A stretch of DNA of 53,311 nucleotides, from NCBI GenBank assembly GCA_030706145.1, contig JAUZPB010000019.1, forward strand, positions 1 through 53,311, given 5' to 3'. Positions 30,047-53,311 of this stretch are shown in pieces. Source of the stretch: Bacteroidota bacterium (GTDB lineage: Bacteria; Bacteroidota; Ignavibacteria; Ignavibacteriales; SURF-24). Position 1 is the stretch's first letter. The number at the start of each line of letters is the position of its first letter. The notes beneath the pieces are model-generated. The model made no database searches, was not told the origin of the DNA, and was given only the letters and a program-made list of their open reading frames with translations. The position numbers and the translations under genes were made by a program.

Positions 30047-31141
30047 ATGGAATTTTATAATACTAATATTTCTAAGGAATCATTTGCTTTAGCTAATGAA
30101 GTTTTTTCTTCAACATATCTTAGCGCAGGCAAAATGGCGGCAAGATTTGAAACAGAACTAAACAGAAAATTAGGCCTGGAAAACCCTGTAAGTGTAAATA
30201 GTGGAACTTCAGCCTTACATCTGGCTTTATCAGTAGCTAAAATCGGGAGAGATGATGAGGTAATATTATCTCCGCAGACATTTGTCGCAACAGGAATGGT
30301 AATCTTGATGCAAGGAGCAAAACCTGTGTTTGCTGATATTCAATATGAAACTGGTAATATTGACCCTTCTTCAATTAAAGATAAGATTACTTCCAAAACA
30401 AAAGCCATTTTACCGGTGCACTGGGGTGGATACCCCTGCGATATGGACGAAATAAATGAAATTGCATCCAAAAACGGAGCGCTCGTAATTGAAGATGCTG
30501 CCCATGCTTTAGGCGCCAAATACAAAAATAAACCTATTGGTTCAATTTCACAGTTTACTGCCTTTTCATTCCAGGCAATAAAACATTTAACCACAGGTGA
30601 TGGCGGAGCCCTTTGTTGTAAAAATACGGAAGACTATGAATTAGCAAAAAAATGCAGGTGGTTCGGTATTGATAGGGAAAACTCTAGTCCATCAATACTT
30701 GGAGAAAGGATCTATGATATTAATGAAATTGGATATAAGTATCACCTAAATGACCTTGCCAGCGCCATTGGCTTAGGAAATCTGCAAACAATAGATAACA
30801 TAGTAAATAAGCACATAACAATTGCTAATAAATACAAAACTGAATTAAAAGACGTTCCTGGCTTGAAACTATTAAACTATTCAGCAGACAGGGAGAGCTC
30901 TTACTGGCTCTTTACTGTACTAGTCGAAAAAAGAGAGGAATTTATTAGGGCATTAAAAGACCGTGGTGTACCAACATCTGTTGTTCATCAAAGGATTGAT
31001 AGAAATTCAATTTTCGGAATTACACCTGGTTTATATAATCAGGAGAAGTTTGATTCTCATCAAATTTCAATTCCAATCCATAACGGTTTAACTGAAGCAG
31101 ATGTTGAGCAAGTAATTAAAGCGGTAAAAGAAGGCTGGTAA
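30047..31141 (+). CDS. DegT/DnrJ/EryC1/StrS-family sugar aminotransferase
   Basis: A 364-aa PLP enzyme that aminates a nucleotide-linked keto-sugar. Motifs: VSVNSGTSALHLAL (cofactor phosphate loop), VIEDAAHALGA (Asp/His contacting PLP) and the Schiff-base lysine K179 in QAIKHLTTGDGGAL. The C-terminal DRGVPTSVVHQRIDRN is typical of the family. The ATG at 30047 gives a normal N-terminus (MEFYNTN); a TTG-initiated 14-residue extension from 30005 is less likely. First gene of an about 18-kb same-strand run. No 4,6-dehydratase is present in the locus, so the keto-sugar must come from elsewhere. Confidence 0.93.
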   Translation: MEFYNTNISKESFALANEVFSSTYLSAGKMAARFETELNRKLGLENPVSVNSGTSALHLALSVAKIGRDDEVILSPQTFVATGMVILMQGAKPVFADIQYETGNIDPSSIKDKITSKTKAILPVHWGGYPCDMDEINEIASKNGALVIEDAAHALGAKYKNKPIGSISQFTAFSFQAIKHLTTGDGGALCCKNTEDYELAKKCRWFGIDRENSSPSILGERIYDINEIGYKYHLNDLASAIGLGNLQTIDNIVNKHITIANKYKTELKDVPGLKLLNYSADRESSYWLFTVLVEKREEFIRALKDRGVPTSVVHQRIDRNSIFGITPGLYNQEKFDSHQISIPIHNGLTEADVEQVIKAVKEGW

Positions 31142-31149
31142 AATAAACT

Positions 31150-31746
31150 ATGTCTGAAAATCTATTCTTTAATAAGTCCGACCTTTTGTATTGCGGAGAA
31201 AATGTAATTATCGGCAAAACTGTGCGTATTAGAAGACCAGAATTGGTTTCAATTGGGGATAATACAATAATTGATGACTTTACATATATATCTTGTAAGC
31301 TGAATATAGGAAATTATTGTCATATTGCATCAAATGTTAATATGAGCGGTGGCAATGGGGAAATAATTATTGGCGATTTTGTGGGTATCGCTTCAGGCTG
31401 CTCTCTTCACCCTTGCTCTTCTGATTATCTCATTGCTTCACTTGATTTGCCATCTGTACCACCCAAATATAGGTTCGGTGGACAATGCGAGACAATTTTT
31501 ATTGAAGATTACGTCTTACTGGGGGCAAACACTGTTGTCCTTCCAGGAGTTAAGCTGCCAGAAGGTTTTGCCTCAGCTGCTCATTCAACAATATCTAAAA
31601 AAGAATATTCTCCTTGGACATTATATGGCGGGTTAAATGCTTCAAAAATAATTCACAGATCTCCTAAAAAATTGAAAAATGTAATTCAACAAATGAAAGA
31701 CGATGGAGTATATGATGGAAACAAAAATAATAGATATACTAAATAG
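31150..31746 (+). CDS. Left-handed beta-helix (hexapeptide) acyltransferase
   Basis: A 198-aa protein with hexapeptide-repeat turns (VIIGKTVRI, VSIGDNTIIDDF, IIIGDFVGIASGC, IFIEDYVLLGANTVVLPGV), the fold of the WbbJ/maltose O-acetyltransferase group. It starts 8 bp after the aminotransferase, so N-acylation of the new amino sugar is the most natural role, although O-acylation cannot be excluded. With an ACP and an AMP ligase directly behind it, the donor could be an unusual acyl group rather than acetyl-CoA. Its last 32 bp overlap the ACP gene. Confidence 0.88.
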   Translation: MSENLFFNKSDLLYCGENVIIGKTVRIRRPELVSIGDNTIIDDFTYISCKLNIGNYCHIASNVNMSGGNGEIIIGDFVGIASGCSLHPCSSDYLIASLDLPSVPPKYRFGGQCETIFIEDYVLLGANTVVLPGVKLPEGFASAAHSTISKKEYSPWTLYGGLNASKIIHRSPKKLKNVIQQMKDDGVYDGNKNNRYTK

Positions 31747-31966
31747 CATTCTATTGTCAAAGAATAAAGAAATAATTACTGATCTTGAGGAAAAGGTTTC
31801 TCTAAGAAATGATTTGGGCTTTGATTCGCTTGACCTGGCTACTTTATCAGTGAGAATTGAAGATGAGTTTGGTATTGATATCTTTGAGGAAAAAATTATC
31901 GATAAAATAAGTGAATTATTAACAATATTGCATAACAATGAAGAATTTTTGGGTCGATCCAAATAA
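31715..31966 (+). CDS. Acyl carrier protein
   Basis: An 83-aa acidic four-helix carrier protein. The phosphopantetheine attachment serine is S38 in LGFDSLDLATL, followed by the expected acidic helix (RIEDEFGIDIFEE). GGAG at 31705-31708, six bases before ATG 31715, favours this start; ATGs at 31703 and 31712 are alternatives. The gene begins inside the acyltransferase and ends inside the ligase, indicating translational coupling. It is a dedicated rather than primary ACP, because no other fatty-acid-synthesis genes lie nearby. Confidence 0.9.
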   Translation: METKIIDILNSILLSKNKEIITDLEEKVSLRNDLGFDSLDLATLSVRIEDEFGIDIFEEKIIDKISELLTILHNNEEFLGRSK

Positions 31967-33173
31967 TAACATAAATATCTCCTATGAAAATTTCTTCAAT
32001 GAACTAAGGTCAATTGATCAGGTTAATAAAATAATTTGTAATAGGGATCCTTATCGGGGGTTTTTGGAGATCTTAGCCAGTTTGTATTGCAACGAAGTAA
32101 TAACAATTCTTGATTACAATCTGTCAGTTACTGAAAGATCAAAATTATCAATTAATAAAGAAGATTTTGATAAGAAGATAAAGATACAGCCTTTACATAT
32201 AGGTAGCCTTAATGATTTTATTGAGAAAATGTCTAAAAATTCCGAGTGGAGATTAAAGCTTTACACGTCTGGAACTACAGGTATACCTAAAAGTATTATT
32301 CATGACTTTAATAGCTTAACAAGAAATGTAAAAGTTAACCCCAGATATAAGGATAATATTTGGGCTCTATTGTATAATCCGACTCATATTGCAGGAATTC
32401 AGGTATTTTTTCAAGCTTTCCTAAATCAGAATACAATTATTAATTTGTATAATTATGAATTACAGAACATTGAAAAAGCACTAATTTCCCATAAAGTTAC
32501 ACACATTTCAGCTACACCAACTTTTTATAAGGCTATTCTCCCGCATTTGGCAAAAACAAATCCAAATATAGTACAAATAACCTCTGGTGGTGAAAGGTAT
32601 TGCTTTGATATTCAAAATAGTTTATCAGTGTATTTCCCAAATGCAAACTTCAAAAATATTTATGCATCAACAGAAGCATGCGCTATACTCAGTTCAAATG
32701 GAGAAATATTTAATATTGATGAAGCTTTAACAAATGGAATAAAGATCTCTGAAAATAAGGAAATATTGATCAAAAAATACTTGGTCGGAGATTCTGAAAA
32801 GTTAAAGATTATAGACGATTGGTATTATACTGGGGATTTTGTCGAGATGGTGGACCAAAAAAGATTTAAAATAATCTCCAGAGAAAGTGACACTGTTAAT
32901 GTTGGTGGCTATAGAGTCGATATTATTGAGATTGAGGATTCTATAAAAAATATTGAGGGAGTTAAAGACGTTCAGATAATCCCTAGGAAGAACTCCTTAA
33001 CTGGTAATATCTTAGAAGCTAGAATAATCAAGGATACTTTTCTTGATGAAAAACAATTTAAGCAAATGATATTTGATAGATTATTTAAGTTGCACCAACC
33101 ATGGAAAGTGCCCCGCATTATTTCATTTGTAAACAATTTTGAAATCTCTAGAACTCTTAAGAAGAAGAAATGA
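31938..33173 (+). CDS. AMP-forming acyl ligase (ANL superfamily)
   Basis: A 411-aa adenylate-forming enzyme that would activate a carboxylic acid and probably load it on the neighbouring ACP. Core motif A3 is LYTSGTTGIPKSI at residues 109-121. YASTEAC (A5-like), DWYYTGDFVE (A7) and SRESDTVNVGGYRVDIIEIE (A8) are all present in order. The protein is short for the family (usually 450-550) and ends ISRTLKKKK, so the A10 lysine is probably K410, one residue from the C-terminus. It overlaps the ACP by 29 bp and the SDR by 4 bp. Confidence 0.9.
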   Translation: MKNFWVDPNNNINISYENFFNELRSIDQVNKIICNRDPYRGFLEILASLYCNEVITILDYNLSVTERSKLSINKEDFDKKIKIQPLHIGSLNDFIEKMSKNSEWRLKLYTSGTTGIPKSIIHDFNSLTRNVKVNPRYKDNIWALLYNPTHIAGIQVFFQAFLNQNTIINLYNYELQNIEKALISHKVTHISATPTFYKAILPHLAKTNPNIVQITSGGERYCFDIQNSLSVYFPNANFKNIYASTEACAILSSNGEIFNIDEALTNGIKISENKEILIKKYLVGDSEKLKIIDDWYYTGDFVEMVDQKRFKIISRESDTVNVGGYRVDIIEIEDSIKNIEGVKDVQIIPRKNSLTGNILEARIIKDTFLDEKQFKQMIFDRLFKLHQPWKVPRIISFVNNFEISRTLKKKK

Positions 33174-33895
33174 AAACAACTCTGATAACTGGTGTCTCAA
33201 GAGGCTTAGGTGCTGAAATAGCAGAGCAAGTCATTAATAAAAATGACGCTTTTGTGATTGGAATAAGCCGGACTTTCTCTGATGAAGTTAAATGTTTAGC
33301 AGAAAAGTATCCGGATAATTTTATGCACATTGCCTTTGATTTATCCGATTATGAAAATCTGAAGAATATCTATTGGAATACTTTGAAGAAGATCGGTCAA
33401 ATTGAATCTGTTATACATAATGCCGCATATGCCTATGATGATTTAGTATCCAATGCAAATATTCAAACCTTGGAATATATGTATAAAGTAAATGTCTTAT
33501 CTCCGATTATACTGACTAAGTATTCAATCCGGGATATGTTATTGAATAATATTAAAGGTTCAATTGTATTTGTAACATCAATAAGTGCTCATAAAGGATT
33601 TAAGGGACTTTCAATGTATGCTTCCACAAAAGGTGCACTTGAGGCTTTTTCAAAGAACGTTGCGAAAGAATGGGGAGCAAAAGGTATTAGATCTAATTGT
33701 GTGTGTCCAGGTTTTATGGAAACTGAAATGAGTTCTAATATATCTTCTGAAATGAAAATGAAAATATTCAACAGAACATCATTAAAAAAAGCAACAGATA
33801 TAAAATCGGTGGCTAGTTCAGTAGCCTTTTTGACTTCAGATGAGTCAAATTCTATTACCGGTCAAACTATTATTGTTGATTGCGGTACAATTTGA
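33170..33895 (+). CDS. Short-chain dehydrogenase, 3-oxoacyl-ACP reductase-like
   Basis: A 241-aa classical SDR. The cofactor motif TGVSRGLG is at residues 7-14 and HNAAYAY (NAG-equivalent) at 83-89. The catalytic Ser-Tyr-Lys set is S137, Y150 and K154 in SMYASTKGA. The C-terminus SNSITGQTIIVDCG is FabG-like. The start codon overlaps the ligase stop (ATGA). Next to an ACP and an acyl ligase, reduction of a 3-keto acyl-ACP to a hydroxyacyl group is the likely job; a sugar-nucleotide substrate is the alternative. Confidence 0.9.
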   Translation: MKTTLITGVSRGLGAEIAEQVINKNDAFVIGISRTFSDEVKCLAEKYPDNFMHIAFDLSDYENLKNIYWNTLKKIGQIESVIHNAAYAYDDLVSNANIQTLEYMYKVNVLSPIILTKYSIRDMLLNNIKGSIVFVTSISAHKGFKGLSMYASTKGALEAFSKNVAKEWGAKGIRSNCVCPGFMETEMSSNISSEMKMKIFNRTSLKKATDIKSVASSVAFLTSDESNSITGQTIIVDCGTI

Positions 33896-33912
33896 AATAA
33901 AGGATTATCTAT

Positions 33913-34833
33913 ATGAAAATATTAGTACTTGGCGGACATGGATTTTTAGGAAAACATGTTGTGGAAATATTATCAAAGTCTGGGCATACTGCAATTCCGG
34001 TTTCACGCAAAGAGGGAATTGACCTGCAAAACTATGAAATTACAAAAAAGTGTTTTACTGAAATTAATCCATCAGTAATTATCAATTGTGCTGCTCATGT
34101 TGGTAGTGTTCATTATGTGAACAAATTTGCTGCCAATGTTATCAATGACAACGTACAAATTGCTCTAAATGTATATAGAGCATTATCCGAAGTATTGCCT
34201 AATGCATTAATTATTAATCCACTATCAAATTGCTCTTATCCGGGAGATGCTAATATTCATTATGAACCTGATTGGTGGAAGGGAGAAGTGCATGAATCAG
34301 TTTTCTCATATGGTAATTCAAAGAAAATAATATATGTATTATCACAATGTTATAAAAAACAGTATGGAATCAACTCTATTAATTATTTAGTCCCGAATGC
34401 CTTTGGTCCAGGTGATTATATAGATCCTAATAAAGTACATGCACTAAATGGAATGATTATTAGAATGATTCAAGCTAAAAGAAATAATATTAAACAATTC
34501 GAAATTTGGGGTTCAGGCTCCCCAATCAGGGAATGGGGATTTATAAAAGATATTGCCCAGATTTTGGCACAAAGTGTAAATTTACAAGATTCACAAATAT
34601 ACCCTGTAAATATTGCCCAAAATAAGGGCTATTCGATAAAAGAGTCAGCAGAAATGATTTCAGAGCTCCTTGGTTATAAAGGTGAGATAGAGTATAACTT
34701 AAATTATCAAGATGGAGCTCCAGTGAAAATATTGGATGCCAGAAAATTCAGAGAGTTATTTCCAGATTTCAAATTTATTGCACATAAAGATGGTATTAAA
34801 GAAACAATAGAATACTATAACGCTATTTTATAG
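33913..34833 (+). CDS. NAD-dependent epimerase/reductase, GDP-L-fucose synthase-like
   Basis: A 306-aa extended SDR. The Rossmann motif GGHGFLG is at residues 7-13. The family catalytic pair reads S105 and C107 in NPLSNCSYP, with Y133 and K137 in SYGNSKK. The region VPNAFGPGDYIDPNKVHAL matches the substrate loop of GDP-L-fucose synthases, which turn a 4-keto-6-deoxy sugar nucleotide into its epimerised, reduced form. Length fits (about 310). The real nucleotide sugar is not known. Gap to the SDR: 17 bp. Confidence 0.85.
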   Translation: MKILVLGGHGFLGKHVVEILSKSGHTAIPVSRKEGIDLQNYEITKKCFTEINPSVIINCAAHVGSVHYVNKFAANVINDNVQIALNVYRALSEVLPNALIINPLSNCSYPGDANIHYEPDWWKGEVHESVFSYGNSKKIIYVLSQCYKKQYGINSINYLVPNAFGPGDYIDPNKVHALNGMIIRMIQAKRNNIKQFEIWGSGSPIREWGFIKDIAQILAQSVNLQDSQIYPVNIAQNKGYSIKESAEMISELLGYKGEIEYNLNYQDGAPVKILDARKFRELFPDFKFIAHKDGIKETIEYYNAIL

Positions 34834-34841
34834 GAGTGAGA

Positions 34842-35768
34842 ATGCGAATATTAGTAACTGGTGGAGCCGGATATGTTGGTTCAGTTCTAGTCCCTCTGCT
34901 ACTTAGTCGAGGCTATCAAATAAGGGTTTATGATAATTTGATGTATGGAGGCGAAAGTTTATTGCCACTATTTACAAATAGTAATTTTGAGTTCGTAAAA
35001 GGGGATGTAAGAGACATGAACTCAATAAAAATAGCTGCTAAAGGATGTGATGCAATTATTCATTTAGCAGCAATTGTAGGATACCCGGCTTGTAGGAAAA
35101 ATCCTGCGCTTGCTCAATCTATTAATTATGATGGAACAAGATCTGTCCTGCAGGTCTCAGATGGACGTACAATACTGTTTGCTTCAACTGGCAGTAATTA
35201 TGGAAGTGTGGCTGACTCTGTTTGTACTGAAGATACTCCCTTAAATCCACTGAGTTTATATGGAACTAGCAAAACAGAAGCAGAAAGATTATTGTTAGAT
35301 GCGGGAAATGTGATTGCATATAGATTCGCTACTGCCTTTGGGGTCTCTTCCAGATTAAGACTCGACTTGATGATAAATGACTTTACTTATAAAGCGAAAA
35401 CACAACAATACTTGGTTATATATGAAAAAAATGTGATGAGGACATTCATACATGTGTACGATATGGCTAGGTCCTTTTTATTCGGAATTGAAAATATGGG
35501 CAAGATGAGAGGAGAAGTGTATAATGTCGGCTCAGAGAAGATGAATTATAGTAAACAACAAATTTGTGATATAATAAAACAAAAAACTGAATGTTATGTA
35601 CATTATGCTGATATAGGCGAAGATGTTGACAAAAGAGATTACGTGGTAAGCTATAAGAAAATTAATGAATTAGGATATGATACATCAATAACTGTGGAAG
35701 AAGGTGTAGATGAACTATTAAAGGCTCTTTCTGTTATTGAATCTCGTGAAAAATACTCAAATGCTTAA
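34842..35768 (+). CDS. NAD-dependent sugar epimerase/dehydratase
   Basis: A 308-aa extended SDR with TGGAGYVG at residues 6-13, the FASTGSNYG segment (115-121) and the Y140-x3-K144 pair in SLYGTSKTEAE. It resembles the UDP-glucose 4-epimerase-like group, without enough specificity signal to name a substrate. AGGAG at 34832-34836 favours ATG 34842 over the GTG at 34836. It starts 8 bp after the fucose-synthase-like gene, so the two probably act in sequence on one nucleotide sugar. Confidence 0.88.
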   Translation: MRILVTGGAGYVGSVLVPLLLSRGYQIRVYDNLMYGGESLLPLFTNSNFEFVKGDVRDMNSIKIAAKGCDAIIHLAAIVGYPACRKNPALAQSINYDGTRSVLQVSDGRTILFASTGSNYGSVADSVCTEDTPLNPLSLYGTSKTEAERLLLDAGNVIAYRFATAFGVSSRLRLDLMINDFTYKAKTQQYLVIYEKNVMRTFIHVYDMARSFLFGIENMGKMRGEVYNVGSEKMNYSKQQICDIIKQKTECYVHYADIGEDVDKRDYVVSYKKINELGYDTSITVEEGVDELLKALSVIESREKYSNA

Positions 35769-35815: not shown

Positions 35816-38800
35816 ATGAAAAAAAATATAGTTCTTTCCTATGTTATTACCACTTACAATAAGATCCAATACCTTAAATATATTATTGATGAGGTATTAT
35901 TAAATATTAAAAATGACGAGGAAATCGTTGTTATTGATGGGGGTAGTGAGGATGGAACTATACAATACCTGGAAGATCTGTATATTTCAGGAAAGATTCA
36001 TAAGTACATATCTGAAAAAGATTGCGGAGAATCTCACGGACTAAATAAGGGACTGCTTTTAGCCGAAGGAGAACTAATAAAACTATTATCAGATGATGAT
36101 GCTTTTTACTTCCCTGGTATTCAGATTTGTAAAAAATTTATGATGGCAAATCCCGAAGTTGAAGTAATGGCCACTAATGGTGCTAGTATTGTTTGGGATG
36201 ATGATATTCCAATTGTTGAATTGGGAAAAGTCTATGAATCTATGTTCAAAGAATGGGAAGAATTTAAGAAGCCTATGGCATTTTGTGGTTTGGGACTTCT
36301 AATACGCCGACAGTCTCTTCCAAAGATCGGTCTATTTAATATCCATTATGTTAGGGTTGATGCAGAATTTTCTTTACGGCTTACTTCTTTGCCTGTTAAA
36401 ATTGCATGGTATACAGGCTATACATGGGTGCGCTTTACTAATATTTCAAGTAATAGTATTAAATATGAACGAAATATTGCTTTGGAAACCCAACAATTGA
36501 ACGGTTATTATAAAGTTCAGATTGATGGGGATAATAATGATAAAGTGCTAATTCAAAATGAAACTAGAAGTAATAATATTGGAGTTAAAAAACAACTTAA
36601 CCTTAGCTTAAAGGAAATTAAAAATAAAGGTTTATCTTGCCAGGAAATCTCTCATGCTTATGTCATTATGAAAAACTGGCTGCAAGAGCAAAATAGGACC
36701 TATCAAAACAAAATTCTATTTGATAAAAAGAATATTAATATTGATAAATATAATGCTGAAATACTTCCAAATGATTTTAGTTATGAAACTACAGATAATG
36801 GAACTTTGTATGAAAGAATAATAAGAAAGTGCAAAGAAAAAAATATTTATTCTGTTAATCTGCATTTAGGATGCGGTGAGATGTATTTTTCCGATTATGT
36901 AAATATTGATTATCCTTCTGATAAACATAATGTCATGAACGTAAAGCCTGATATCGAGATCGACCTGCTTGATATGGAACTGCCAGCTAATGCAATAGAT
37001 GAAATCAGGCTTCATCACGTTTATGAACATTTTAACCGGGTTACTGCATTAAGCTTGCTAATTAAATGGCATAAATGGTTAAAACTAGGAGGAAAACTTC
37101 ATATTGAAACACCCGATCTGATCGGAAGTGCAAAAACCCTCCTTTCTGATATGCCATTAAAGATCAAAATGGGCGTCGTACGTCACCTTGCTGGTGATCA
37201 GGCAGCCTCATGGGCTTATCATATAGATCACTGGTTTGCTGAAAGATTTGAGCATACATTAGGTCTCCTTGGCTTTGGAAAAATTAAAGTAAATAACTCC
37301 ACATGGAAGGTTGAACCCTTTTTGTCAAATGTTGAGGTCATAGCAGAGAAAACATGTGAACTATCTACCGAAGAAATGTTGCTTTCGGCCGATAAGATCT
37401 TGTGGGAAAGCACTGTATCAGACCGGGAAAAAAAGGTATATGAGGTTTGGAGAAAGCAGTTAAGAGATGTGTTGACCGGCTCGAATCATGAAGACCTAGG
37501 AATTGCAGGAATAAGTAATATTAAAGAAACCATTGCATGCTCAAAAACAATTGAAAATAATATATCGCAGAATAACACTATCCCATTATCTGAAATTCAT
37601 GACTTCAACCAGATGAATAGAAATAAATGGGTTATTGAAAAAGCAAAAACAATCAATGCTGGCTCAAAAGTATTAGATGTTGGCGCTGGTACTTGTCCCT
37701 ACAAATATCTGTTTAATCATTGTGATTATAAAACTCATGATTTCAAGAAATATGAAGGCGTTAAATTAAATGGTGAACAAGACTATGGGAAAATCGACTA
37801 TGTCTCGGATATAGTAAACATACCAATAGAAGACAATTCCTTTGATGTTATTTTGTGTACTGAAGTTTTGGAACATGTCCCAGAGCCAGCAAAAGCTCTT
37901 GAAGAGATGTCTAGACTGCTTAGACCAGGGGGAAGATTGTTGATTACTGCACCTCTTGGATCGGGACTGCATCAACTCCCATATCACTATTATGGTGGAT
38001 ACACACCAGAGTGGTATAAGCATTTCGGCGAAAAATTCGGTCTAAATGTGGTCGAAATAACTCCAAATGGTGGCTTTTTTAAGCTCCTTTCTCAGGAGAC
38101 TGCCAGATTTGTTTGGACTCTGCCTAAGCATAGACACCTTCATGGTGAATCAGAGGAAAACTTAAAGAAATTGTTCGGTGAGCTATTGCCTAGATTTCTC
38201 TATGAGCTGGATGAAAAATGTATGATTGATCAGTTTACTGTAGGTTACCATGTAGAGTTCATTAAAGGAAAACCTATTCACACTTCCGATGGCTGCAATA
38301 AAGAGCAGGTTAGTTCAAAAGAAAAAGCAAATGAATACGCAAGTACAAACAAAATGGATTTGGCGAAACATAGGACTAAAGGAGTTATTTTTAGCAAGAA
38401 TAGAGCACTTCAGCTAGATGCTCTTTTAAGATCATTTTATTTGAATTGTCTTGATCCGGAAAATATAGAACTGATAGTTATTTATAAGGCTGATGACAAA
38501 TATATAAATCAGTATAAACTCTTGGAAGAAACATATCAAAATGTTGTCTTCGTAAAGGAGCTGGATTTTAAGGTGCAGTTACTTGAAGCTGTCTTGGATT
38601 CAAAATATTTAATGTTTTTAGTAGATGACAATGTTTTTATTAGGGACTTTTGTATTAGTCAGCTATGCGATAAATTAGAGCAAATACCAAATGCTTTAGG
38701 CTTTTCTCTCCGTCTTGGAGAAAATACAATCTATTGTTATCCAAAAAACTCTAGCCAGGAATTGCCTAAGTTTAACAGGCTAGATAATAATGTGCTATTA

Positions 38801-40375: not shown

Positions 40376-43300
40376 ATGAAAAAGATTATATCATTTTTGG
40401 CAGGTGATGCCGGCAATATACATTTCATAAAATCGATAGTTAATTATCTTAGTGCATTTTATGAGGTCCGCATTTATGCAAAATTAAATTATGAACAAGA
40501 TGAATTACAAAAAATATTAAATGAATCGGACCTTGTGTGGTATGAGTGGGGTAATGGACCTGTTGTTAAGGGAAGCTGGCTTTCAGGAAATGCAAAGACA
40601 ATTTGCCGCATTCATAGATATGAAATATTGGGCGAGGAAATTAAACAAATTAACTGGAAGAATATAGATAATATTATCTTTGTCAATAAAGAATATCTTG
40701 AGCTCTTTAAGGAATTAGTAAATAGCTATATTGAAGAAGATTCTTTTTTCTCTATTATTCCGAACCCTATAAGTGAAGTTAAACCTTTTATTGAGAAATC
40801 TGCTGGATATAATATCGCCTATATCTCAAGATTTAATTCGGATAAAAATCCTGCCTTAATGATCCAAATATTAAAAAAACTGGTCGATGTTGACAGCAAT
40901 TACAAGATCTATATGGCAGGAGCTATTCAAGATTACCAGCTTTACCTTTATTGCAAACACCTATTAAGTGAATTGAAAATAAAAGATAATTTCATTTTTG
41001 AGGGTAAAATATCAGACATTAATCATTGGCTAAAAGATAAAAATTATATCCTTTCAACTTCAATTGTAGAAGCTCACCCTGTCTCAATCTCTGAAGCAAT
41101 GATGCTTGGAATAAAACCTGTTATTCATAACAGTTATGGGAAATTAGATAATATCTTTGATAAGAAGTTCCTTTTTAATACAGCTGAAGAAGCAGTTAAA
41201 ATAATTACAGAGAAAGACTATGATTCATTAAGCTATAAAAACATTATATCAGAACGTTTTAGTGAAGAAAATGTACTTCCCAAAATCCAGGACTTAATTA
41301 AAGATACTCTTAATAAAGATATTATATCGAGGAAAATAAATAAACCTAAAGATTCTCCTTTTATCACAATAGGAATTGTAACATATAATCGTGCAAAATA
41401 TTTAATACAGGCAGTTCAAAGTGCATTATTGCAGCAAGGGAACTTTGAAATTGTGATCGTAGATGATGCTTCTGAGGATGAAACAAGGCAGGTAGTTGAA
41501 GCTTTTAACTCAGATAAAATTGTATATATCAGAAATGAGATGAATCTGGGGCGTCCAAAATCCCGTAATAAGTGCATTCAATATGCAAAGGGTGAGTATA
41601 TCTTATGGATGGGTGATGACGATCTGTTAATAAATGGAGTAATTTGCGAGTATTCATCAATAATAATGAATAACCCCAAAATAGATGTTATTTATGGCAA
41701 TTTGCAGGCCTTCGATGACAAGACAGGAGAAGATCTGGAGCTATATTCAGCTGTAGATTATACTCCTTCAAACCGCAAAATTCTGATGAACTTAATTATG
41801 GGTTCTGGTATAACCGACGGCGGCTCAATGATTAGAAAAGAAATATATGAAAAGTATGGCATTTATGATGAAGAGTATTTAAGGGCACAGGACAATGAGT
41901 TATGGGCAAGGATAGCACTCAAAGCTAGATATTTTAAATATAATAGAACTGTTTATAGATATAGAAAGCATGCGGGAAATGTTTCTTTCGGTAATTTTGT
42001 AGATACATCTTATGAATCGAAAACAATTCGCAAGATAGTAAATAGTTATCCATTGGATGTTATTTTCAATGAAAGCGAGATACGATCAAAATTAGATATT
42101 ACTAAGGCTTTGAATACTGTAGTAAAGGGATTAGTTAAGTTTCAGGATTATTATAATGCAACTATGATATTGTTCAAAAGTAATATTATAGATGATTATG
42201 ATTCATTAAAAGACTATATATTATACTTGCTGTGTATGGGGCAAATAAATAAAGCAAAAACAGAATTTGAAAGGCTCCTGGAAGTACTAACAATTGATTC
42301 AACCGATAAGAAGTATATTAGTATGCTGATTTTGGAATATGAGAATTATGCTAACTCAATTCAAAATGGCATTGAAGAACAAAACCTTTTACAGGTTAAA
42401 GACTCCATAGATTCATGTCTAAAAAAATATGGACTGAACTTCTACGTTGCAAAAGCTTTAGCAGATATAATGACCCTTGGGGGAGATACTGCCCAGGCCT
42501 ATGAATATTTCAAAATTGCAGTTAGGTTAAATCCTACAGATGATTTGATTTACCAAAGAGCTCAGGAAGTTGCCCAAAAAGTAAATAAACTTGAAGAGCT
42601 TAATTCAATGCGAAACCGTATAATGGAAGATCTTCCTTTGTTTGATGAATCTAATAAGATTTGTCAGAATGTAATGGTATCTGTAATTATTCCAACATAT
42701 AACAGGAAAGATAAGCTTGTAAGAGCTATTAAGAGTGTATTAGCACAGAGCTATGATGACTATGAAATAATTGTAGTAAATGATAATGGTGAAGATGTTT
42801 CTTCTGTAATAGAGGAATTGAAGGATCCAAGGATCAGACTTATTTCTCACAATATAAATAAAGGGCTTTCTGCGGCAAGAAATTCAGCTATTAAATATTC
42901 CAGAGGTAAATATTTAGCCTATCTTGATGACGATGATATATATTATCCTGACCACCTGGAAACCCTGGTTAATTACCTTGAGAATAGTAATAGTAAAATT
43001 GCTTATACAGATGCTAATAGATTAATAATCGAAAATAACGTTGAGAATAATCAAACAGCAAAAAGGGATATTCCATACTCATCTGACTTTGACAGTGAAG
43101 ACATACTCTATAATAACTTTATTCCTGTCCTTTGTATTATGCATAAAAAAGAGTGTCTTAGTGATGGAGTTATTTTTGATGAATCTCTCAGGGTCTTTGA
43201 AGACTGGGATATGTGGATCAAATTATCAAGGAAATACGAATTCTCTCATATAAAAAAGATTACTTGTGAATTCACCTGGACTAATGATGGTTCTACAATG

Positions 43301-46300: not shown

Positions 46301-47479
46301 AAAGACGATTCAATTGGATTGGTTGGACCTATTAGTAATTTTGTAAGTGGAGTGCAGCTGGATAAAGAAGCCTCTTACAAGAATGTGATAGAAATGAATG
46401 AATATGCTAGAAAAGTAAAGGAGATCAATCAGGGGCAAATCTTACAGTTCCCAAGAATTGCATTTTTGTGTACTCTTATTAAACGCCAGGTTATAGAAAA
46501 AATTGGAGGCCTGGATGAAAGATTTTCTCCTGGAAATTTTGAAGATGATGACTTTTGTCTAAGAGCTCAGTTAGCTGGATTTTACACTGTTATTGCAAAA
46601 GACGTATTTATACATCATTATGGCTCAAAGAGCTTCAAAATTGGAGGCGAAGAAAAATATTCGGATATTTTGACCATAAATAAAAAGAAGTTTGTTGACA
46701 AGTGGGGTGCAGATCCAAATGAAATATGGCTCGGCGGAAAGTCTATTAAAAATAGGAGCTATTATATTGCAATAAATTCAGATGAATTTACTCAATCTTT
46801 CGAACGCGGACTTACGTTTCTACAGGATAATGAAAATAAAAACGCCTTTTCTGAATTATTAAAAGCTAAGAAGTCATTTAAGTATTCAAAACGAGAAAAA
46901 TTAAAGAACATAAAATATGACGATGTTTTGAATTTACTGGGAAATATCTGCCTAATTGAAAACGATCTTGAAAAGGCAAGAATATTCTTTGAAGAACAAC
47001 TGCAAATTTCAGGTGATTCTTCCGATGCTTGTCTTGGGCTTGGAGAAATATTCCTTAGGGAGGAGCAGTTTGATTCAGCAAAGACAATGTTTGAATGGGC
47101 AGTGAAAAATGACCCACAAAATCGAAAAGCAATTGAAAAACTTAATGAAGTAAATCTTATATTTGGAATTGACAAAGAAGATAATTCATTAACTAGTGCC
47201 AAGGTACCGGAAACTAAGAATTCATTCATTGAAATGATCGAGAAATCAGAGGCCTTGATTATTGAGCATAAGACAAAAGATGCAGAGCTTATATTGCATA
47301 ATATACTGACTAAAGATCCTGAAAACATCTCTGCGCTAAATAATCTTACAACAATTGAATTGTTAAATGAGAATTATCTGGAGGCTTTAGGGTACATTAA
47401 CAGGGTAATCGAGATACAGTCCGATAATCAGATTGCTCTGGATAACCTGAATTATATTCAGGAAAAATATAAAAATTAG
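40376..47479 (+). CDS. Giant glycosyltransferase with six GT domains and TPRs
   Basis: A 2367-aa protein in one uninterrupted frame. In order: a GT4-like domain at about 1-320 (EAHPVSISEAMMLG). GT2 a at about 328-575 (GIVTYNRAKYL; MGDDDLL near 412). TPR/helical 600-750. GT2 b at about 765-985 (SVIIPTYNRKDKL; YLDDDDIYY near 849). A helical linker. GT2 c at about 1158-1405, rhamnosyltransferase-like (IVIPIYNAGDKL; NSDT near 1242). GT4 at about 1432-1855 (FGALGGTELHTKNIAEG; paired Cys insertion; WDETYCMTVNEALALG). GT2 d at about 1868-2120 (ILTFNGLEYNKECIESI; NNDT near 1957). TPRs 2140-2367. No membrane segments. It would add several sugars to one acceptor, with TPRs likely recruiting the protein substrate. 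Known fused GTs rarely carry six domains. Confidence 0.92.
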   Translation: MKKIISFLAGDAGNIHFIKSIVNYLSAFYEVRIYAKLNYEQDELQKILNESDLVWYEWGNGPVVKGSWLSGNAKTICRIHRYEILGEEIKQINWKNIDNIIFVNKEYLELFKELVNSYIEEDSFFSIIPNPISEVKPFIEKSAGYNIAYISRFNSDKNPALMIQILKKLVDVDSNYKIYMAGAIQDYQLYLYCKHLLSELKIKDNFIFEGKISDINHWLKDKNYILSTSIVEAHPVSISEAMMLGIKPVIHNSYGKLDNIFDKKFLFNTAEEAVKIITEKDYDSLSYKNIISERFSEENVLPKIQDLIKDTLNKDIISRKINKPKDSPFITIGIVTYNRAKYLIQAVQSALLQQGNFEIVIVDDASEDETRQVVEAFNSDKIVYIRNEMNLGRPKSRNKCIQYAKGEYILWMGDDDLLINGVICEYSSIIMNNPKIDVIYGNLQAFDDKTGEDLELYSAVDYTPSNRKILMNLIMGSGITDGGSMIRKEIYEKYGIYDEEYLRAQDNELWARIALKARYFKYNRTVYRYRKHAGNVSFGNFVDTSYESKTIRKIVNSYPLDVIFNESEIRSKLDITKALNTVVKGLVKFQDYYNATMILFKSNIIDDYDSLKDYILYLLCMGQINKAKTEFERLLEVLTIDSTDKKYISMLILEYENYANSIQNGIEEQNLLQVKDSIDSCLKKYGLNFYVAKALADIMTLGGDTAQAYEYFKIAVRLNPTDDLIYQRAQEVAQKVNKLEELNSMRNRIMEDLPLFDESNKICQNVMVSVIIPTYNRKDKLVRAIKSVLAQSYDDYEIIVVNDNGEDVSSVIEELKDPRIRLISHNINKGLSAARNSAIKYSRGKYLAYLDDDDIYYPDHLETLVNYLENSNSKIAYTDANRLIIENNVENNQTAKRDIPYSSDFDSEDILYNNFIPVLCIMHKKECLSDGVIFDESLRVFEDWDMWIKLSRKYEFSHIKKITCEFTWTNDGSTMTSSKWDEYCWTTLVFYHKNRKYSNNINKFQKKILDFINYHENSLMEIIKKKSTTADTSNQQMELQYVLTELAYYYYKKDDVDAALLLIYRILSGKDLEILVVQLFNEICKKINYQDIELLKLTDFCNNEEDPKYPRYDSSKLSQIVINVIEFRLKERISSLAIAGKNKNYVYPEILETKKIYDIVIPIYNAGDKLEICLKSVLANTNKKHNIFLLDDASNDPKVEELLKQYKTGNGNIKVLRNSVNLGFIKNINKGFKLSDNDIVILNSDTQVTSRWLEKMERCLLSRPSIGIVSPLSNNATILSIPEINQNNKELEDVGIEKISELLFNCSKREYLQIPTAVGFCMMISRKTINMIGSFDEAYGLGYCEENDYCMRAWDRGIESVCCDDAYVHHYGEASFKNVDRLDEKKKKNIELLKKRYPDYDKTVFAFCITNPLRYIQEKIRSELHKLKGQDKSKILHVIHNFGALGGTELHTKNIAEGLKKKFDFTIIYPHADRSLWSDMKEECTSDNIRIIKYNNVLKENHSRGGRFIIFPEDLENIYVERYFSKIISGGDYDIIHFQHLGEWSSLLLPMVAKACKKKVILSIHDYFFWCPEYNLVNEKLQKCGKEKADFSDKDCIKCLSEKRIADDRRLSLDMESYLLMREIITKNVIATADKIIVPSKFVKDKLLSTFGTDVEQKVIVVEHGIVVPELNLDLLNQKTNEGESLRIGFLGNLYDRKGAEVFLKTIEHVNKKNIEFSIFGFVPPQYSDRLNNLDVKVFGQYNRNDLPSLLANIDMIIVPSIWDETYCMTVNEALALGVPVLASSVGAINERIINNENGFLVAPNDSHALVDQILEIFNNREKLSLVRNNLKKIKIKTLKENIDDYENIYDTIVRSAEIKDKSSSEEEPVTSIIILTFNGLEYNKECIESIQKHTKSKYELIIVDNNSNDGTVNYLKDLEKSNRNISLILNNENLGFPIAVNQGIIRSKGEYILILNNDTIVTEGWLDRIIDVAKKDDSIGLVGPISNFVSGVQLDKEASYKNVIEMNEYARKVKEINQGQILQFPRIAFLCTLIKRQVIEKIGGLDERFSPGNFEDDDFCLRAQLAGFYTVIAKDVFIHHYGSKSFKIGGEEKYSDILTINKKKFVDKWGADPNEIWLGGKSIKNRSYYIAINSDEFTQSFERGLTFLQDNENKNAFSELLKAKKSFKYSKREKLKNIKYDDVLNLLGNICLIENDLEKARIFFEEQLQISGDSSDACLGLGEIFLREEQFDSAKTMFEWAVKNDPQNRKAIEKLNEVNLIFGIDKEDNSLTSAKVPETKNSFIEMIEKSEALIIEHKTKDAELILHNILTKDPENISALNNLTTIELLNENYLEALGYINRVIEIQSDNQIALDNLNYIQEKYKN

Positions 47480-47526: not shown

Positions 47527-48408
47527 ATGGATAACCTGGAAATAATATTTTCATCTGCTTATGAAATGTTTTTACAAAAAAGATATATTGAATCGCTTGA
47601 AAAATTAGAAGAATTTGATAATTATTTATCCCAGAATTACTCTGATGATTGGAAGATCAGCTCTGAAAATTTGCGGGGCTTTGTTTATCTGGCTTTAGAT
47701 AATATTGATCAAGCACGTATTTGTTTTGAAAAATCCCTAAATATTGATCAAAACTCCTCCCAGGCTTGCGCTGGACTTGCTGAGATCTTTTTGATTAAAA
47801 ATCAGGATAAAGAAGCTAAGACTATGTTCGAATATGCTGCGATCACTAATCCTGAAAACCAGTTTGCTGTAAAGGGTCTTACTAAAGTAAATGAATTGTT
47901 GAACCTTCCCTCTGATCATAACTCCTTAATATCAAAAGAGGAAGTTAAACTTCCGGATTTCCGAAATGTTATTTTTGAGTCCGGTGAATTATTTAGTAAC
48001 GGACAATATGAACAAGCAATCGATGGAATAAGCTCAGTTGAAAAAAAAGTTCTTAATGATTTGGTTGACCTGAGAAATCTTTTGACTGAAATGCTTAATA
48101 TGAAGGCAACGGCTTATCTTAATCTAAATCAACTCGAAGAAGCTAAAGAGTCATTTGAAAGAGCCTTAAATATTTCTCCAGACTCTTCGATCGCATGCTG
48201 GGGACTTGCCGAAATATTTTATAGAACTAAAATGTATGAGGAAGCAAAGACAATGTTTGAATGGGCAGTAAAAAATGACAATACTAACTTAGCTGCAGAG
48301 GAGGGTCTTGCTAAAACCAACAGTGTACTTGAAAGTTTCGGAAATAACGATATTTGTGATAAACCAACATTGAAACTTGCAAGCGGTAAAACTATTATAA
48401 TAGATTAA
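47527..48408 (+). CDS. TPR protein
   Basis: A 293-aa protein made of two copies of an about 110-residue TPR module. Each contains LARICFEKSL-type and AKTMFE(W/Y)A helices and GLAEIF turns (about residues 75-120 and 210-250). The same module forms the C-terminus of the 2367-aa glycosyltransferase, with a 36-nt block differing by one base. A good Shine-Dalgarno (AAGGAGAAC) precedes the ATG. No catalytic domain, so it is likely a scaffold or substrate adaptor for the giant enzymes. Confidence 0.88.
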   Translation: MDNLEIIFSSAYEMFLQKRYIESLEKLEEFDNYLSQNYSDDWKISSENLRGFVYLALDNIDQARICFEKSLNIDQNSSQACAGLAEIFLIKNQDKEAKTMFEYAAITNPENQFAVKGLTKVNELLNLPSDHNSLISKEEVKLPDFRNVIFESGELFSNGQYEQAIDGISSVEKKVLNDLVDLRNLLTEMLNMKATAYLNLNQLEEAKESFERALNISPDSSIACWGLAEIFYRTKMYEEAKTMFEWAVKNDNTNLAAEEGLAKTNSVLESFGNNDICDKPTLKLASGKTIIID

Positions 48409-48648: not shown

Positions 48649-50163
48649 ATGAATATCCGAAAATCTCCTCTGATCTCCCTTAGTATGATTGTTAAAAATG
48701 AAGAGAAATACCTAAAGCAATGTCTTGATTCAGTTAAGGATATTGTAGATGAAATTGTAATAGTTGATACTGGTTCAACTGATAGTACATTGAAAATTGC
48801 AAATGAATATGGAGCTAGTTTATATCAGTTCGAATGGATAAATGACTTTTCAGCTGCCCGCAATTATGCTTTAAGTAAATCAAAAGGTGAGTGGATATTA
48901 TATCTAGATGCAGATGAGCGTATTACAAATGAGTCAGGAAAAATAATTCATGATACAATCGAAAAGCTGAATCAACCTGCCTTGCTCGGCCTTAGATGCC
49001 TGGTCAATAGTATCGATGAAAAAAATGGTAAACCAAAACTAATGAGGTATACCCGCCTATTTAATAACTCACCAGAAATACGTTTCCATGGGAAAGTACA
49101 TGAACAGATAGAAGATTCGCTTATAAGTTGCGGCTATAGTATTGTGGATACAGATATAGAAATTATTCATGTGGGTTATAATATACATTTAGGCGGGATT
49201 AAAGAAAAAGCAAGTAGAAATCTTGAACTGTTACTAGATGAATATAAAGAAAATAAATCATCTTATTATGCCTTCCATTTAGGGAATACTTATGAGATCC
49301 TTGAGAACTATGAAAATGCATTTAGATTTTTCAATATAGCCCTTGAGGATAAAAACTTAAATGTTGCCTACAGATCAATCTGTTACCTCAATATAGCGGA
49401 TTATTATAGTTCAGAATTATTTGATACAAACTTAGCTGAAAAAACCATAACAGATGGATTGATTTATGATCCCCAAAATCCGCTGCTTAACCTTCTTGCA
49501 GCACAAATTAACTTTAAATCGGGGAATATTGATAAGGCTATTGCCTTCTGTAAAGATTCTTTTGTAAATAATGAAAAGCTTAAGAATACGAAGAAAAGCA
49601 ATTCAATTCTGGATATTTATATTGAACCGGATAAAATCTATTCATATGGGCTATATCTTTCTTTAGCTAACCAGAAAATAAATGAATTCGATTTTTTCTT
49701 TACAAGATCCGATCAATCATACCAGAATTTGATTTCATTGCTGCTGGATGAAAAACCACTTTTAAGGTCAGATTTCTCTAGGATAGCCAGCTTTATAAAT
49801 AAGGATAACCTGAATTTATTTTTACTGCTCATAGAGAACAGAAAAGACAAGCTGGCTGCATTAGAAATTCTTTGTGCCGTTAAAACAAAATTCAATGACA
49901 ATGCTAAGTTTCTTATTGCCCTGGGAAATCTTTATTATCAAAATGGCAATTCTGATCAAGGCATTAATTGCCTAAAACAATCTCTGGAATTAAAACAGAA
50001 GGATCCTTCTGCTGTTTTTTATCTTATATCAATTCTTCTGTTGCAAAATCAACTATCGGAAATACCTGAGTGGTTGTCATTTGCTGAAAAGCAATTTGGC
50101 CATATTCCGGTATTCAAAGAAAAATTTCAAATCCTTTTGCAGAAATTGGGAGCAATAATCTGA
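48649..50163 (+). CDS. GT2 glycosyltransferase with C-terminal TPRs
   Basis: A 504-aa protein. The N-terminal GT2 domain (about 8-215) has SLSMIVKNEEKYLKQCLDSV, the VDTGSTDSTLKIA loop and the metal-binding DADE near residues 85-88 (YLDADERI). The VKNEE start and EWINDFSAARN segment place it with TPR-linked GT2 enzymes such as those modifying peptides and flagellin. Residues 215-504 are TPR-like helices ending LIALGNLYYQNGNSDQGINCLKQSL. It has its own promoter-like region and overlaps the next gene at TGATGA (50161-50166), so the two are translationally coupled. Confidence 0.92.
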   Translation: MNIRKSPLISLSMIVKNEEKYLKQCLDSVKDIVDEIVIVDTGSTDSTLKIANEYGASLYQFEWINDFSAARNYALSKSKGEWILYLDADERITNESGKIIHDTIEKLNQPALLGLRCLVNSIDEKNGKPKLMRYTRLFNNSPEIRFHGKVHEQIEDSLISCGYSIVDTDIEIIHVGYNIHLGGIKEKASRNLELLLDEYKENKSSYYAFHLGNTYEILENYENAFRFFNIALEDKNLNVAYRSICYLNIADYYSSELFDTNLAEKTITDGLIYDPQNPLLNLLAAQINFKSGNIDKAIAFCKDSFVNNEKLKNTKKSNSILDIYIEPDKIYSYGLYLSLANQKINEFDFFFTRSDQSYQNLISLLLDEKPLLRSDFSRIASFINKDNLNLFLLLIENRKDKLAALEILCAVKTKFNDNAKFLIALGNLYYQNGNSDQGINCLKQSLELKQKDPSAVFYLISILLLQNQLSEIPEWLSFAEKQFGHIPVFKEKFQILLQKLGAII

Positions 50164-53100
50164 TGAATTCTAGATATCAAAATGCACTTGAACTTTTCCA
50201 AAGGAAAGATTATTTGGGAGCCGAAAAGATACTCATTGCAATGCATGATGAGATTCCAAATGACCCAGAAGTTGCTTATTTCCTTGCTGTAATTTATTCA
50301 AAATCCGAACGGTTTCAGGAGGCAATAAGTCTTTTTGACACTGTTCTTGGAGTCAACAATGAACATACTGAAGCTCATTATAACATAGCTCTGGCTTATC
50401 AAAACCTTAATATGTTCGATGAGGCACTCTATCATTATGGTAAAGCACTCGAGCAAAATCCATTTCTATCTGAAGCTCTGAATAATTCAGCAATTATTTA
50501 CAAGCAGCTAGGGGATATCGAATCTGCAGAAAAAGCTTTTACACAGGCAATTAAATCAAAACCCAATAACCAGAATGCCGTCAGCAACCTTGGTGGACTA
50601 ATATCCGGGAAAAACCTATCAAAAGAATTTCTTGATGCCCAGCAGTACTATAATAATAAAGACTATAATTCTGCTAAGGAATTGTTGAATAAACTTTACG
50701 TAAATGAACCCACTAATCAGGATATATTAAATCTCCTTGGAATGGTTTGCTTTTCTCAAAATAATCTGGACGAATCAATAGTATATTATGAGAAAATCTT
50801 AAGCATTAATAAAGATTCTGAGCTGGCCTATTATAGTCTTGGCGTTTGTCATCAGGGAAAGGATGATAACGAACTAGCCCTTAAATATTACAAAAAGGCT
50901 TTGGAGGTAAAACCAGATTATCTGGATGCATTAAATAATCTGGGATTGCTTTATGTGGGATTGAAGAACTTTGATGAAGCAGAAAAATGCTATTTATCTG
51001 CTCTTGAGAGTGATCCTCTTTACTTTAACTCAATTACTAATCTTGGCGCGCTAAAAGTCAATACTGATAAGGTAGAGGAAGGTCTCGAATTATTCGATAA
51101 GGCATTATCACTCGCAATAGAAAAAAATGACAAGACCCAGATGGCTGTCTCGTATGGCAACCTTGGTTTTGCTAAGTTAAGACAGCTCGATCTGCAAAAT
51201 GCAATTATATATTTTAACCTGAGCATCGAATTGGATAGTGATAATTTGCTTGCTCATTATAATAAAGGTGAGGCTCTCTTAATGTCCGGACAATTCGAAG
51301 AGGGATGGAAAGAATATGAATGGAGAACGGGTAGAAAGGACTTTGGTTTACGGCATTTTGATAAAGCTATTACTTCCGGGGCTGATCTGAAGGGAAAAAA
51401 AGTTCTTGTTTATGCTGAGCAGGGTATTGGAGATGCTCTGCAGTTTGAGAGGTACTTAACACTCCTTAAGGAACATGGAGCATATATAATTTTTGAATGT
51501 GACAAATCGCTATTTGGCTTGATGAAATCAATTCCCGAGATAGATGAAATTATTGAAAGGAATCTTGTTGATGCTCCAGTAATTAATTATGATTATGACA
51601 TTCCGCTCCTGAGTCTTCCACTTTTCTTTAATACAACACTGGAAAATATTCCCTCTACGGTTCCTTATCTGCAACCTGAAAAAGAGTATATGGAGAAATG
51701 GACTCAAATCATTAAAAATTCAGACAAGTTAAAAATTGGAATAGTTTGGGCTGGTAGCCCTACACATTCCAATGACAGACATCGCTCAGTTAAATTAAAT
51801 AGATTTTTACCTCTCTTTTCTATCGAAGGAACGGAATTCTTTAGCCTTCAAAAAGGATTTCCAACAATTCAGGCAAGAGACTATCAGTTGATGATAAAAA
51901 ACCTTGATGAACAAATAAACTCATTTTCTGATACAGCTGCTGCGATTGCTCATCTGGATTTGGTAATTACAGTCGATACTTCTGTTGCGCATCTTGCAGG
52001 TGCAATGGGAAAACCAGTATGGGTCTTGTTACCTTATGTCCCAGACTGGAGATGGATGCTTGGAAGATCTGATTCTCCATGGTATCCTACAATGAGGCTC
52101 TTTAGACAGCCTGCCCTTTGTGACTGGGATTCAGTCTTTAATAGTCTAAAATCAGAATTATTGTCTTTAACAAAACCTTCAAATACAAAACATTCAAACA
52201 CAAAACCTTCAAAAATAGAAGTATCACCTATGAAACGTTCTTTCGAAACTCTAGATATATTTCTTTCAAAACTTGAAAATGAAGCTTATGCTGAACCTAT
52301 AACTTACTTGCATTCAACTATTACAAATAATGTACTAAATGGATTATTCTCGAAATTGACACTAAAACCTAATGCTAAGATACTTGATATAGGATGCGGA
52401 CAGGGACCCGCACTTGAAATCTTTACTCAGAAGGGATTTCAACCTGTTGGTATTACATTAAGTGATGAAGATATTCTCGTCTGCAGGGAAAAAGGATTTA
52501 ATGTTCAAAAAATGGATCAGTCCTTCCTGAAGTTTGAAAACGAATCTTTTGATTTTATTTGGTCGAGGCACTGCATTGAACATAGTTTTGCGCCATATTA
52601 TACTCTTTTTGAATATTATAGAGTACTTAAACCTGGATCTTTAGCTTATATTGAAATGCCGGCTCCCGATACCGAGGCTCATCATGAAACAAACCCTAAT
52701 CATTATAGTGTGCTTCCAAAATCATCGTGGATATCCCTTATGCAGAGATGTGGATTTCATATATTGGACATAGCTGATCATGACCTTAACCTGAAGATTG
52801 GTAAAGATATGTATTGGGGTTTTCTCTGCATGAAACCTACACAGCAGGAATTAAATTCGGCTTTCGTTGCACAAGATAGGAAAGATGATATTTACCTTGC
52901 TCTTACTTCTGGAGAAAATTTCGGATGGGGGGTTTGTAGTAAATATTTAAGAAAAGAGCTTGCCGACAGAGTTAATGTTATTAATGTTGAGGAACTAAGG
53001 GATTTTAAGAAAACCGATCTGATTGATGGAACAGTTCTTCATGCACTTACTAATCAGAACTTTTTCCCACTTTCTGAACTAAGAGGTAAGAAGAATTATG

Positions 53101-53311
53101 GCTATACTTTTTTTGAAAGTGAACTTACCGATCTGTCAGTAGAAAATGCAAAAAAATATGAAAAAGTAATTGGCGGCTCCACATGGAACCGCGATAAAAT
53201 GCTTGAAAAGGGAATTACAAATGTTGATTATCTTATTCAAGGCATAGATCCTGAATTATTTTATCCTGGAGATGTTCAAAAAAACAATGATCTTTTTGTG
53301 ATCTTTTCCGG
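50163..53311 (+). CDS. Partial giant TPR / GT9-like / methyltransferase / GT4 protein
   Basis: An open frame from ATG 50163 (overlapping the previous stop, TGATGA) to the right edge, at least 1049 aa, 3' end outside the window. Residues 1-400 are about ten TPRs (ALNNLGLLYVGLKNFDEAEKCY) ending in the FEEGWKEYEWR motif typical of TPR-GT9 fusions. About 405-665 is a GT9-like domain (VLVYAEQGIGDALQFERYL; DLVITVDTSVAHLAGAMGKP), related to ADP-heptose/O-GlcNAc-like transferases. A tandem-repeat linker lies at 670-684. About 700-895 is a class I methyltransferase (ILDIGCGQGPALE; SRHCIEHSFAP; VLKPGSLAYIEMP). From about 905 a GT4 N-terminal half begins (VIGGSTWNRDKMLEKGITNV; GIDPELFYPGD). Confidence 0.9.
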   Translation, partial: MNSRYQNALELFQRKDYLGAEKILIAMHDEIPNDPEVAYFLAVIYSKSERFQEAISLFDTVLGVNNEHTEAHYNIALAYQNLNMFDEALYHYGKALEQNPFLSEALNNSAIIYKQLGDIESAEKAFTQAIKSKPNNQNAVSNLGGLISGKNLSKEFLDAQQYYNNKDYNSAKELLNKLYVNEPTNQDILNLLGMVCFSQNNLDESIVYYEKILSINKDSELAYYSLGVCHQGKDDNELALKYYKKALEVKPDYLDALNNLGLLYVGLKNFDEAEKCYLSALESDPLYFNSITNLGALKVNTDKVEEGLELFDKALSLAIEKNDKTQMAVSYGNLGFAKLRQLDLQNAIIYFNLSIELDSDNLLAHYNKGEALLMSGQFEEGWKEYEWRTGRKDFGLRHFDKAITSGADLKGKKVLVYAEQGIGDALQFERYLTLLKEHGAYIIFECDKSLFGLMKSIPEIDEIIERNLVDAPVINYDYDIPLLSLPLFFNTTLENIPSTVPYLQPEKEYMEKWTQIIKNSDKLKIGIVWAGSPTHSNDRHRSVKLNRFLPLFSIEGTEFFSLQKGFPTIQARDYQLMIKNLDEQINSFSDTAAAIAHLDLVITVDTSVAHLAGAMGKPVWVLLPYVPDWRWMLGRSDSPWYPTMRLFRQPALCDWDSVFNSLKSELLSLTKPSNTKHSNTKPSKIEVSPMKRSFETLDIFLSKLENEAYAEPITYLHSTITNNVLNGLFSKLTLKPNAKILDIGCGQGPALEIFTQKGFQPVGITLSDEDILVCREKGFNVQKMDQSFLKFENESFDFIWSRHCIEHSFAPYYTLFEYYRVLKPGSLAYIEMPAPDTEAHHETNPNHYSVLPKSSWISLMQRCGFHILDIADHDLNLKIGKDMYWGFLCMKPTQQELNSAFVAQDRKDDIYLALTSGENFGWGVCSKYLRKELADRVNVINVEELRDFKKTDLIDGTVLHALTNQNFFPLSELRGKKNYGYTFFESELTDLSVENAKKYEKVIGGSTWNRDKMLEKGITNVDYLIQGIDPELFYPGDVQKNNDLFVIFS
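52170..52214 (+). repeat. 15-nt tandem repeat, three copies, coding
   Basis: Three 15-nt units, ACAAAAC(C/A)TTCAAA plus one variable base, are in frame and encode TKPSN, TKHSN and TKPSK. They form a flexible linker between the GT9-like and methyltransferase domains. The period is a multiple of three, so copy-number change would alter linker length without a frameshift. Confidence 0.9.

Follow-up and report, generated by a model that had tools for sequence, protein, structure and literature searches.

A probable flagellin glycosylation island with giant multidomain glycosyltransferases in an ignavibacterial genome

On what carrier do the giant glycosyltransferase (GT) proteins encoded by a member of the Ignavibacteriales build their glycan? 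The locus in question occupies the right-hand part of a window of 53,311 nucleotides, which is the entire contig C101 of a 5.34 Mb genome in 345 contigs, Melioribacteraceae-like to judge by its named relatives; the leftmost 29.6 kb of the window hold chiefly housekeeping genes, and no genes for polysaccharide export or polymerisation were found there. All ORFs of the locus are on the plus strand, and those of 1508, 2367, 504 and at least 1049 aa to which a sequence-only reading had drawn attention are present as described. Judging by their length and by the strength of their domain matches, these ORFs are not products of chance, and equally large ORFs occur at the same place in relatives. Immediately upstream, on the same strand, lies an ORF of 614 aa (27805-29649) with two predicted membrane spans and no Pfam match. 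The earlier reading had inferred a protein- or polymer-directed assembly line for a long methylated, acylated glycan and had argued against an ordinary O-antigen locus. A protein-directed system is supported here: flagellin, one of the carriers that it suggested, proves to be encoded right after the locus. On the basis of sequence, synteny and one predicted structure, the locus is very probably a flagellin glycosylation island.

Sugar enzymes and giant proteins of the locus

The locus begins with a DegT/DnrJ/EryC1/StrS-family sugar 4-aminotransferase of the VioA/CalS13 type (30047-31141; PF01041, E = 6.5e-98), whose closest solved relatives in a PDB search are sugar aminotransferases (4zwv/4xau), including CalS13 (4zas). 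This gene is followed by an AntD/VioB-like hexapeptide N-acyltransferase of 4-amino sugars (31150-31746; Hexapep), which matches PDB entries 3vbi-3vbp (E = 3.6e-24), presumably structures of AntD of anthrose synthesis. Next come an acyl carrier protein (ACP; 31703-31966; PF00550, 1.6e-07), an AMP-forming acyl ligase predicted to load it (31938-33173; PF00501, 2e-16) and a FabG/VioR-type short-chain reductase (SDR; 33170-33895; adh_short_C2, 3.6e-48), for which the best NCBIfam match, 3-oxoacyl-ACP reductase, falls below its cut-off. The series is completed by a GDP-fucose-synthase-like epimerase/reductase (33913-34833; PF01370, 1.1e-31; GDPFucSynFcl 149 bits, below cut-off) and an NAD-dependent sugar epimerase/reductase (34836-35768; PF01370, 2.9e-35; galE/dTDP-glucose dehydratase superfamily, below the cut-offs). 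Pfam thus bears out the enzyme types that had been assigned to these genes by inspection. A DegT aminotransferase, an acyltransferase, an ACP and a ketoacyl-ACP reductase therefore stand together at 30047-33895, as in a viosamine-type module, and they share the island with the GT genes. A ketoacyl-ACP synthase (VioS) is absent from the locus, where the AMP ligase takes its position, and the gene for the precursor enzyme, RmlB, lies at another place in the genome.

Downstream of this module are the giant proteins. Protein A (35816-40342, 1508 aa) has the layout GT2, methyltransferase-like region, methyltransferase, a segment of about 250 aa without a Pfam match, TPR and GT2. Its methyltransferase is recognised by Pfam at residues 610-788; the region at about 325-520 (36788-37375) has no Pfam match and resembles a SAM methyltransferase by eye, with the motif LGCGEMYFSDYVNID. 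The segment without a match (about residues 861-1110; 38396-39145) has a homolog inside a 1579-aa GT protein of locus L076 (217 bits) and is possibly an unclassified GT-A-like domain; AlphaFold, run on 38396-39235 as a single sequence, gave a pLDDT of 34. Protein B (40376-47479, 2367 aa) carries six GT domains in the order GT4, GT2, GT2, GT2, GT4, GT2, followed by TPRs. Protein C (47527-48408) is a TPR protein of 293 aa (TPR_2, 5.4e-19) whose ORF had been overlooked earlier. Protein D is discussed below. Protein E (50163-53311) is cut by the contig end and reaches 1260 aa when contig C178 is added; it consists of TPR, a GT9-like domain, a methyltransferase (Pfam, residues 733-867) and a GT4 domain complete only on C178. 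A PDB search with the GT9-like domain found nothing. On C178 follows gene F (L003:361-3072, minus strand, 903 aa), which combines Glyco_trans_1_2 (GT-B type), a borderline GT2 (23.0 bits against a cut-off of 23.3), TPR and a methyltransferase.

The window had been credited with at least 11 GT domains and three methyltransferases. Ten GT domains within it score above the Pfam cut-offs (two in A, six in B, one in D and the GT9-like domain of E); E's GT4 domain, which is complete only once C178 is added, makes the eleventh. Gene F, on the latter contig, brings the count to 12 above cut-off and one borderline, so that about 13 GT domains are spread over five polypeptides, the largest of 2367 aa. 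Two of the three methyltransferases (in A and E) are found by Pfam, the third being the region of A seen by eye; F contributes another beyond the window. A canonical DxD motif is absent at the expected place in B_GT2d, F_GT2 and A_GTx, and known islands work with few GTs, namely one to three in Enterobacteriaceae (PMC4875605) and up to five in Geobacillus (PMC5109656). Both observations would suit a scenario in which flagellin is the target, with most giant GT domains decayed or acting as scaffolds and the glycan correspondingly short. However, five GT2 domains keep a DxD-type motif (DDD in A_GT2a, B_GT2a and B_GT2b, DSD in A_GT2b, DAD in D), every ORF is open, and the giants recur across the order. 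We regard this scenario, a refinement of the island reading and not its exclusive rival, as unlikely, albeit with a chance that is far from negligible.

Flagellin beyond the contig edge and across the order

The right edge of the window is a crossable contig end, a circumstance missing from the sequence-only reading. The last 141 bases (53171-53311; the overlap has no strand) are identical to the end of C178, a search for end overlaps gave no other match in the genome, and such an exact overlap is what neighbouring contigs of a k-mer assembly graph should show. The linkage of the window to flagellin depends on this overlap, across which the reading frame of protein E stays intact. Gene F is then followed by a perfect sigma-28 promoter (L003:294-320, minus strand; TAAA-N15-GCCGATAA) and the N-terminus of flagellin (L003:1-213, minus strand; PF00669, 3.7e-9); with up to one mismatch allowed, 0.03 such boxes would be expected by chance in C178. 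A search for sigma-28 or sigma-54 promoters ahead of the GT genes gave no match above chance level. C178 terminates within flagellin, and the first genes on contig C285 encode a flagellin C-terminus, FliS and FliD, in that order. The only non-FlgL flagellin termini found in the genome are this one N-terminus and this one C-terminus, and the sole other flagellin-type match is FlgL, inside the flagellar operon on C302. Since flagellin is split over the two ends in this manner, C178 very likely adjoins C285, the link spanning one unassembled gap within the flagellin gene. It is this arrangement past the contig edge, with gene F, flagellin under a sigma-28 promoter and then FliS and FliD, that underlies the interpretation of the locus as a flagellin glycosylation island.

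A comparison of neighbourhoods in relatives for linkage to flagellin, as the sequence-only reading had proposed, shows the association to be general. In 19 flagellin neighbourhoods from 18 genomes (G004 gave two) representing three families of the order, giant GT genes adjoin flagellin in every case (19/19); in 18 they lie upstream on the same strand, the arrangement in L050 being divergent, and 18 include an ortholog of D. The gene order of the window, B-like, D, E, F and flagellin, is found again in L060, and L071 has D, E, F and flagellin with one extra gene. Among 116 genomes, D is present in 72 of the 79 that have a flagellin-domain match and in 0 of the other 37 (Fisher p = 1.4e-23, a value that is not that of independent events because the genomes are related); in several of the seven genomes with a match and no D, the match may be FlgL only. 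In 48 of 71 genomes D shares its strand with flagellin and precedes it by no more than 1.2 kb; where the two lie within 8 kb of each other, in 53 genomes, the median gap is 185 bp. In most of the remaining genomes the two genes are on separate contigs. Among named records, flagellin occurs within the fetched flank for 13 of the best 14 D orthologs, and the arrangement is present in Stygiobacter electus and in a metagenome bin labelled Melioribacter roseus. A comparable pattern, with lower similarity, is seen in records of Neomarinimicrobiota. Records of Calditrichales and Neomarinimicrobiota (L091, 878-8785, and L106, 2-7642) encode GT proteins of 2636 and 2547 aa; flagellin was not found within the fetched flank of L091. 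Most of the relatives' islands are without the sugar module within the 20 kb examined around flagellin, which is consistent with the known variability of flagellin glycosylation islands.

Some relatives have tandem flagellins (L045 6164, L046 14237, L047 16198, L052 5498, L056 6576, L057 5918 and L058 5154). Here the GT-proximal copy has no sigma-28 box within 250 bp (the best site has 3-4 mismatches) and may share a transcript with the GT genes, whereas a distal copy has a box with 0-2 mismatches.

GT2 and GT4 domains, sugar-nucleotide genes and methyltransferases are common in O-antigen, capsule and exopolysaccharide loci, one of which might have come to lie beside flagellin by chance. The acylation genes have a similar association: in genome G067 the ortholog of the ACP adjoins that of the ligase (41% identical) within a conserved ACP-ligase-SDR trio (L157 125-2299, contig C40), and this trio sits in a separate locus alongside what by eye are probable Wzx/Wzy-like genes. 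The latter locus is a probable surface-polysaccharide cluster, and the trio is therefore probably a portable acylation cassette, common to polysaccharide and flagellin loci. In the window, however, there is no Wzx, Wzy, WbaP or exporter, and neither there nor beyond the right edge on C178 was any flippase, polymerase or polyprenyl-phosphate sugar transferase found; where Wzx, Wzy or WbaP genes just past the edge would have marked an ordinary O-antigen locus, flagellin is encoded instead. None of the proteins encoded between 30047 and the right end of the window is predicted to have more than one membrane span, and 3 or 4 spans are predicted in just two of 112 same-strand upstream ORFs from the 19 relatives, the two belonging to a single locus. 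Given also the co-occurrence of D with flagellin, a lipid-linked polysaccharide locus is quite improbable, and it was rejected for its missing machinery and the flagellin at its edge.

Protein D as candidate linking enzyme

The best candidate for the enzyme that attaches a sugar to protein is protein D (48649-50163, 504 aa). Its closest solved sequence is GmaR (5e-34), followed by SunS (1.1e-25). The alignment with GmaR covers the whole GT domain, and the two have DADE and HEQ motifs in common, which in D (residues 87-90 and 151-153) are among the positions invariant in 17 orthologs of the order. In the AlphaFold model (pLDDT 92) a TPR superhelix comes after a GT-A domain, so that D has the GmaR-like combination of a GmaR-homologous GT2 domain and TPRs, and the folds closest to it in Foldseek are those of the peptide S-glycosyltransferases SunS and ThuS (E about 1e-15; 3.3 A over 303 columns for 7msp). 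On TIGR04195, the SunS family, D scores 110.8 bits against a curated cut-off of 350, and membership was rejected because of this score. As GmaR and SunS/ThuS are its nearest solved relatives, D is predicted to attach the first sugar to protein. It is hardly credible that the main target is some other protein, be it an adhesin, a T9SS substrate or a secreted peptide, with flagellin a mere neighbour: SunS and ThuS do modify peptides (sublancin in the case of SunS) and the genome does encode T9SS-sorted proteins (window 6742-8913), but the locus holds no adhesin or peptide gene, a sublancin-type one included, and the order-wide linkage is to flagellin. The synteny thus strongly supports flagellin as the carrier.

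Known systems and a proposed pathway

The enzyme mix of the locus has precedents, and its strangeness had been overstated, because flagellin glycosylation islands of like composition are published. Those of Enterobacteriaceae (PMC4875605) and Geobacillus (PMC5109656) likewise neighbour flagellin and contain GT2/GT4-type enzymes, GT-methyltransferase fusions, a DegT aminotransferase, an acetyltransferase, an ACP, a CoA/ACP ligase and FabG; they differ in having far fewer GTs than the 13 or so domains here and in a sporadic, not order-wide, linkage. In the viosamine island of Pseudomonas syringae (vioA, vioB, acp, vioR, vioS, vioM, vioT), the products of vioA, vioB, acp and vioR supply flagellin with an acylated 4-amino sugar (PMC3927599). 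This island and that of P. aeruginosa PAK share with our locus the aminotransferase, hexapeptide acyltransferase, ACP and 3-oxoacyl-ACP reductase, and VioT is, like the GTs here, large (1173 aa); our locus differs in its AMP ligase, which stands where the viosamine island has the ketoacyl synthase VioS, in two additional epimerases and in its far greater number of GT domains. GmaR, which transfers GlcNAc onto the flagellin of Listeria monocytogenes (PMC9638930), has an N-terminal GT2 domain followed by TPRs as in D, which is about 130 aa shorter (504 versus 637 aa) and is not expected to carry the C-terminal MogR-binding antirepressor domain. FlmG of Caulobacter combines TPRs, which bind flagellin (PMC7591256), with a GT-B domain that acts on it, and by domain layout resembles the first half of protein E, to which methyltransferase and GT4 domains are added. 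What is new here is the giant fused GT proteins with their number of GT domains, and their conservation across the order; a search of the open-access literature found no papers on flagellin glycosylation in Ignavibacteria or on multidomain flagellin glycosyltransferases.

For flagellins, sugars are described as being transferred one after another in the cytoplasm with no lipid carrier involved (PMC3958885), and the scarcity of membrane spans in the locus proteins fits such a process. As the sugar pathway and the large GTs directly adjoin the flagellin gene, the most likely role of the locus is to add a modified sugar chain to the flagellum. For the sugars, the linking step, the order of addition and the glycan length we infer the following course. 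RmlB, encoded elsewhere, would produce dTDP-4-keto-6-deoxyglucose, which the DegT enzyme would aminate at C4. The ligase would charge the ACP with an acyl group, which the FabG-like enzyme would reduce and the AntD/VioB-like enzyme would pass to the 4-amino group, with the two epimerase-type enzymes providing one or two more deoxysugars. In the cytoplasm, the TPR superhelix of D would hold unfolded flagellin while D attaches the first sugar to Ser/Thr. Extending, branching and methylating the chain would fall to A, B, E and F, all soluble multi-GT proteins, before the glycosylated flagellin is exported and assembled.

P. aeruginosa flagellin glycans have up to 11 sugars (PMC3958885). It may be speculated, doubtful as the idea is, that the giant proteins of the Ignavibacteriales, with up to six or more fused GT domains, form a hard-wired assembly line, started by a GmaR/SunS-like enzyme, in which domain order encodes sugar order and which makes one of the longest flagellin glycans known. 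The island interpretation itself would assign a function to the otherwise unexplained giant GT-TPR proteins of a whole order and name flagellin as their target. Since the arrangement is also seen in Neomarinimicrobiota records, phyla that have received little study may widely share this type of flagellin glycosylation.
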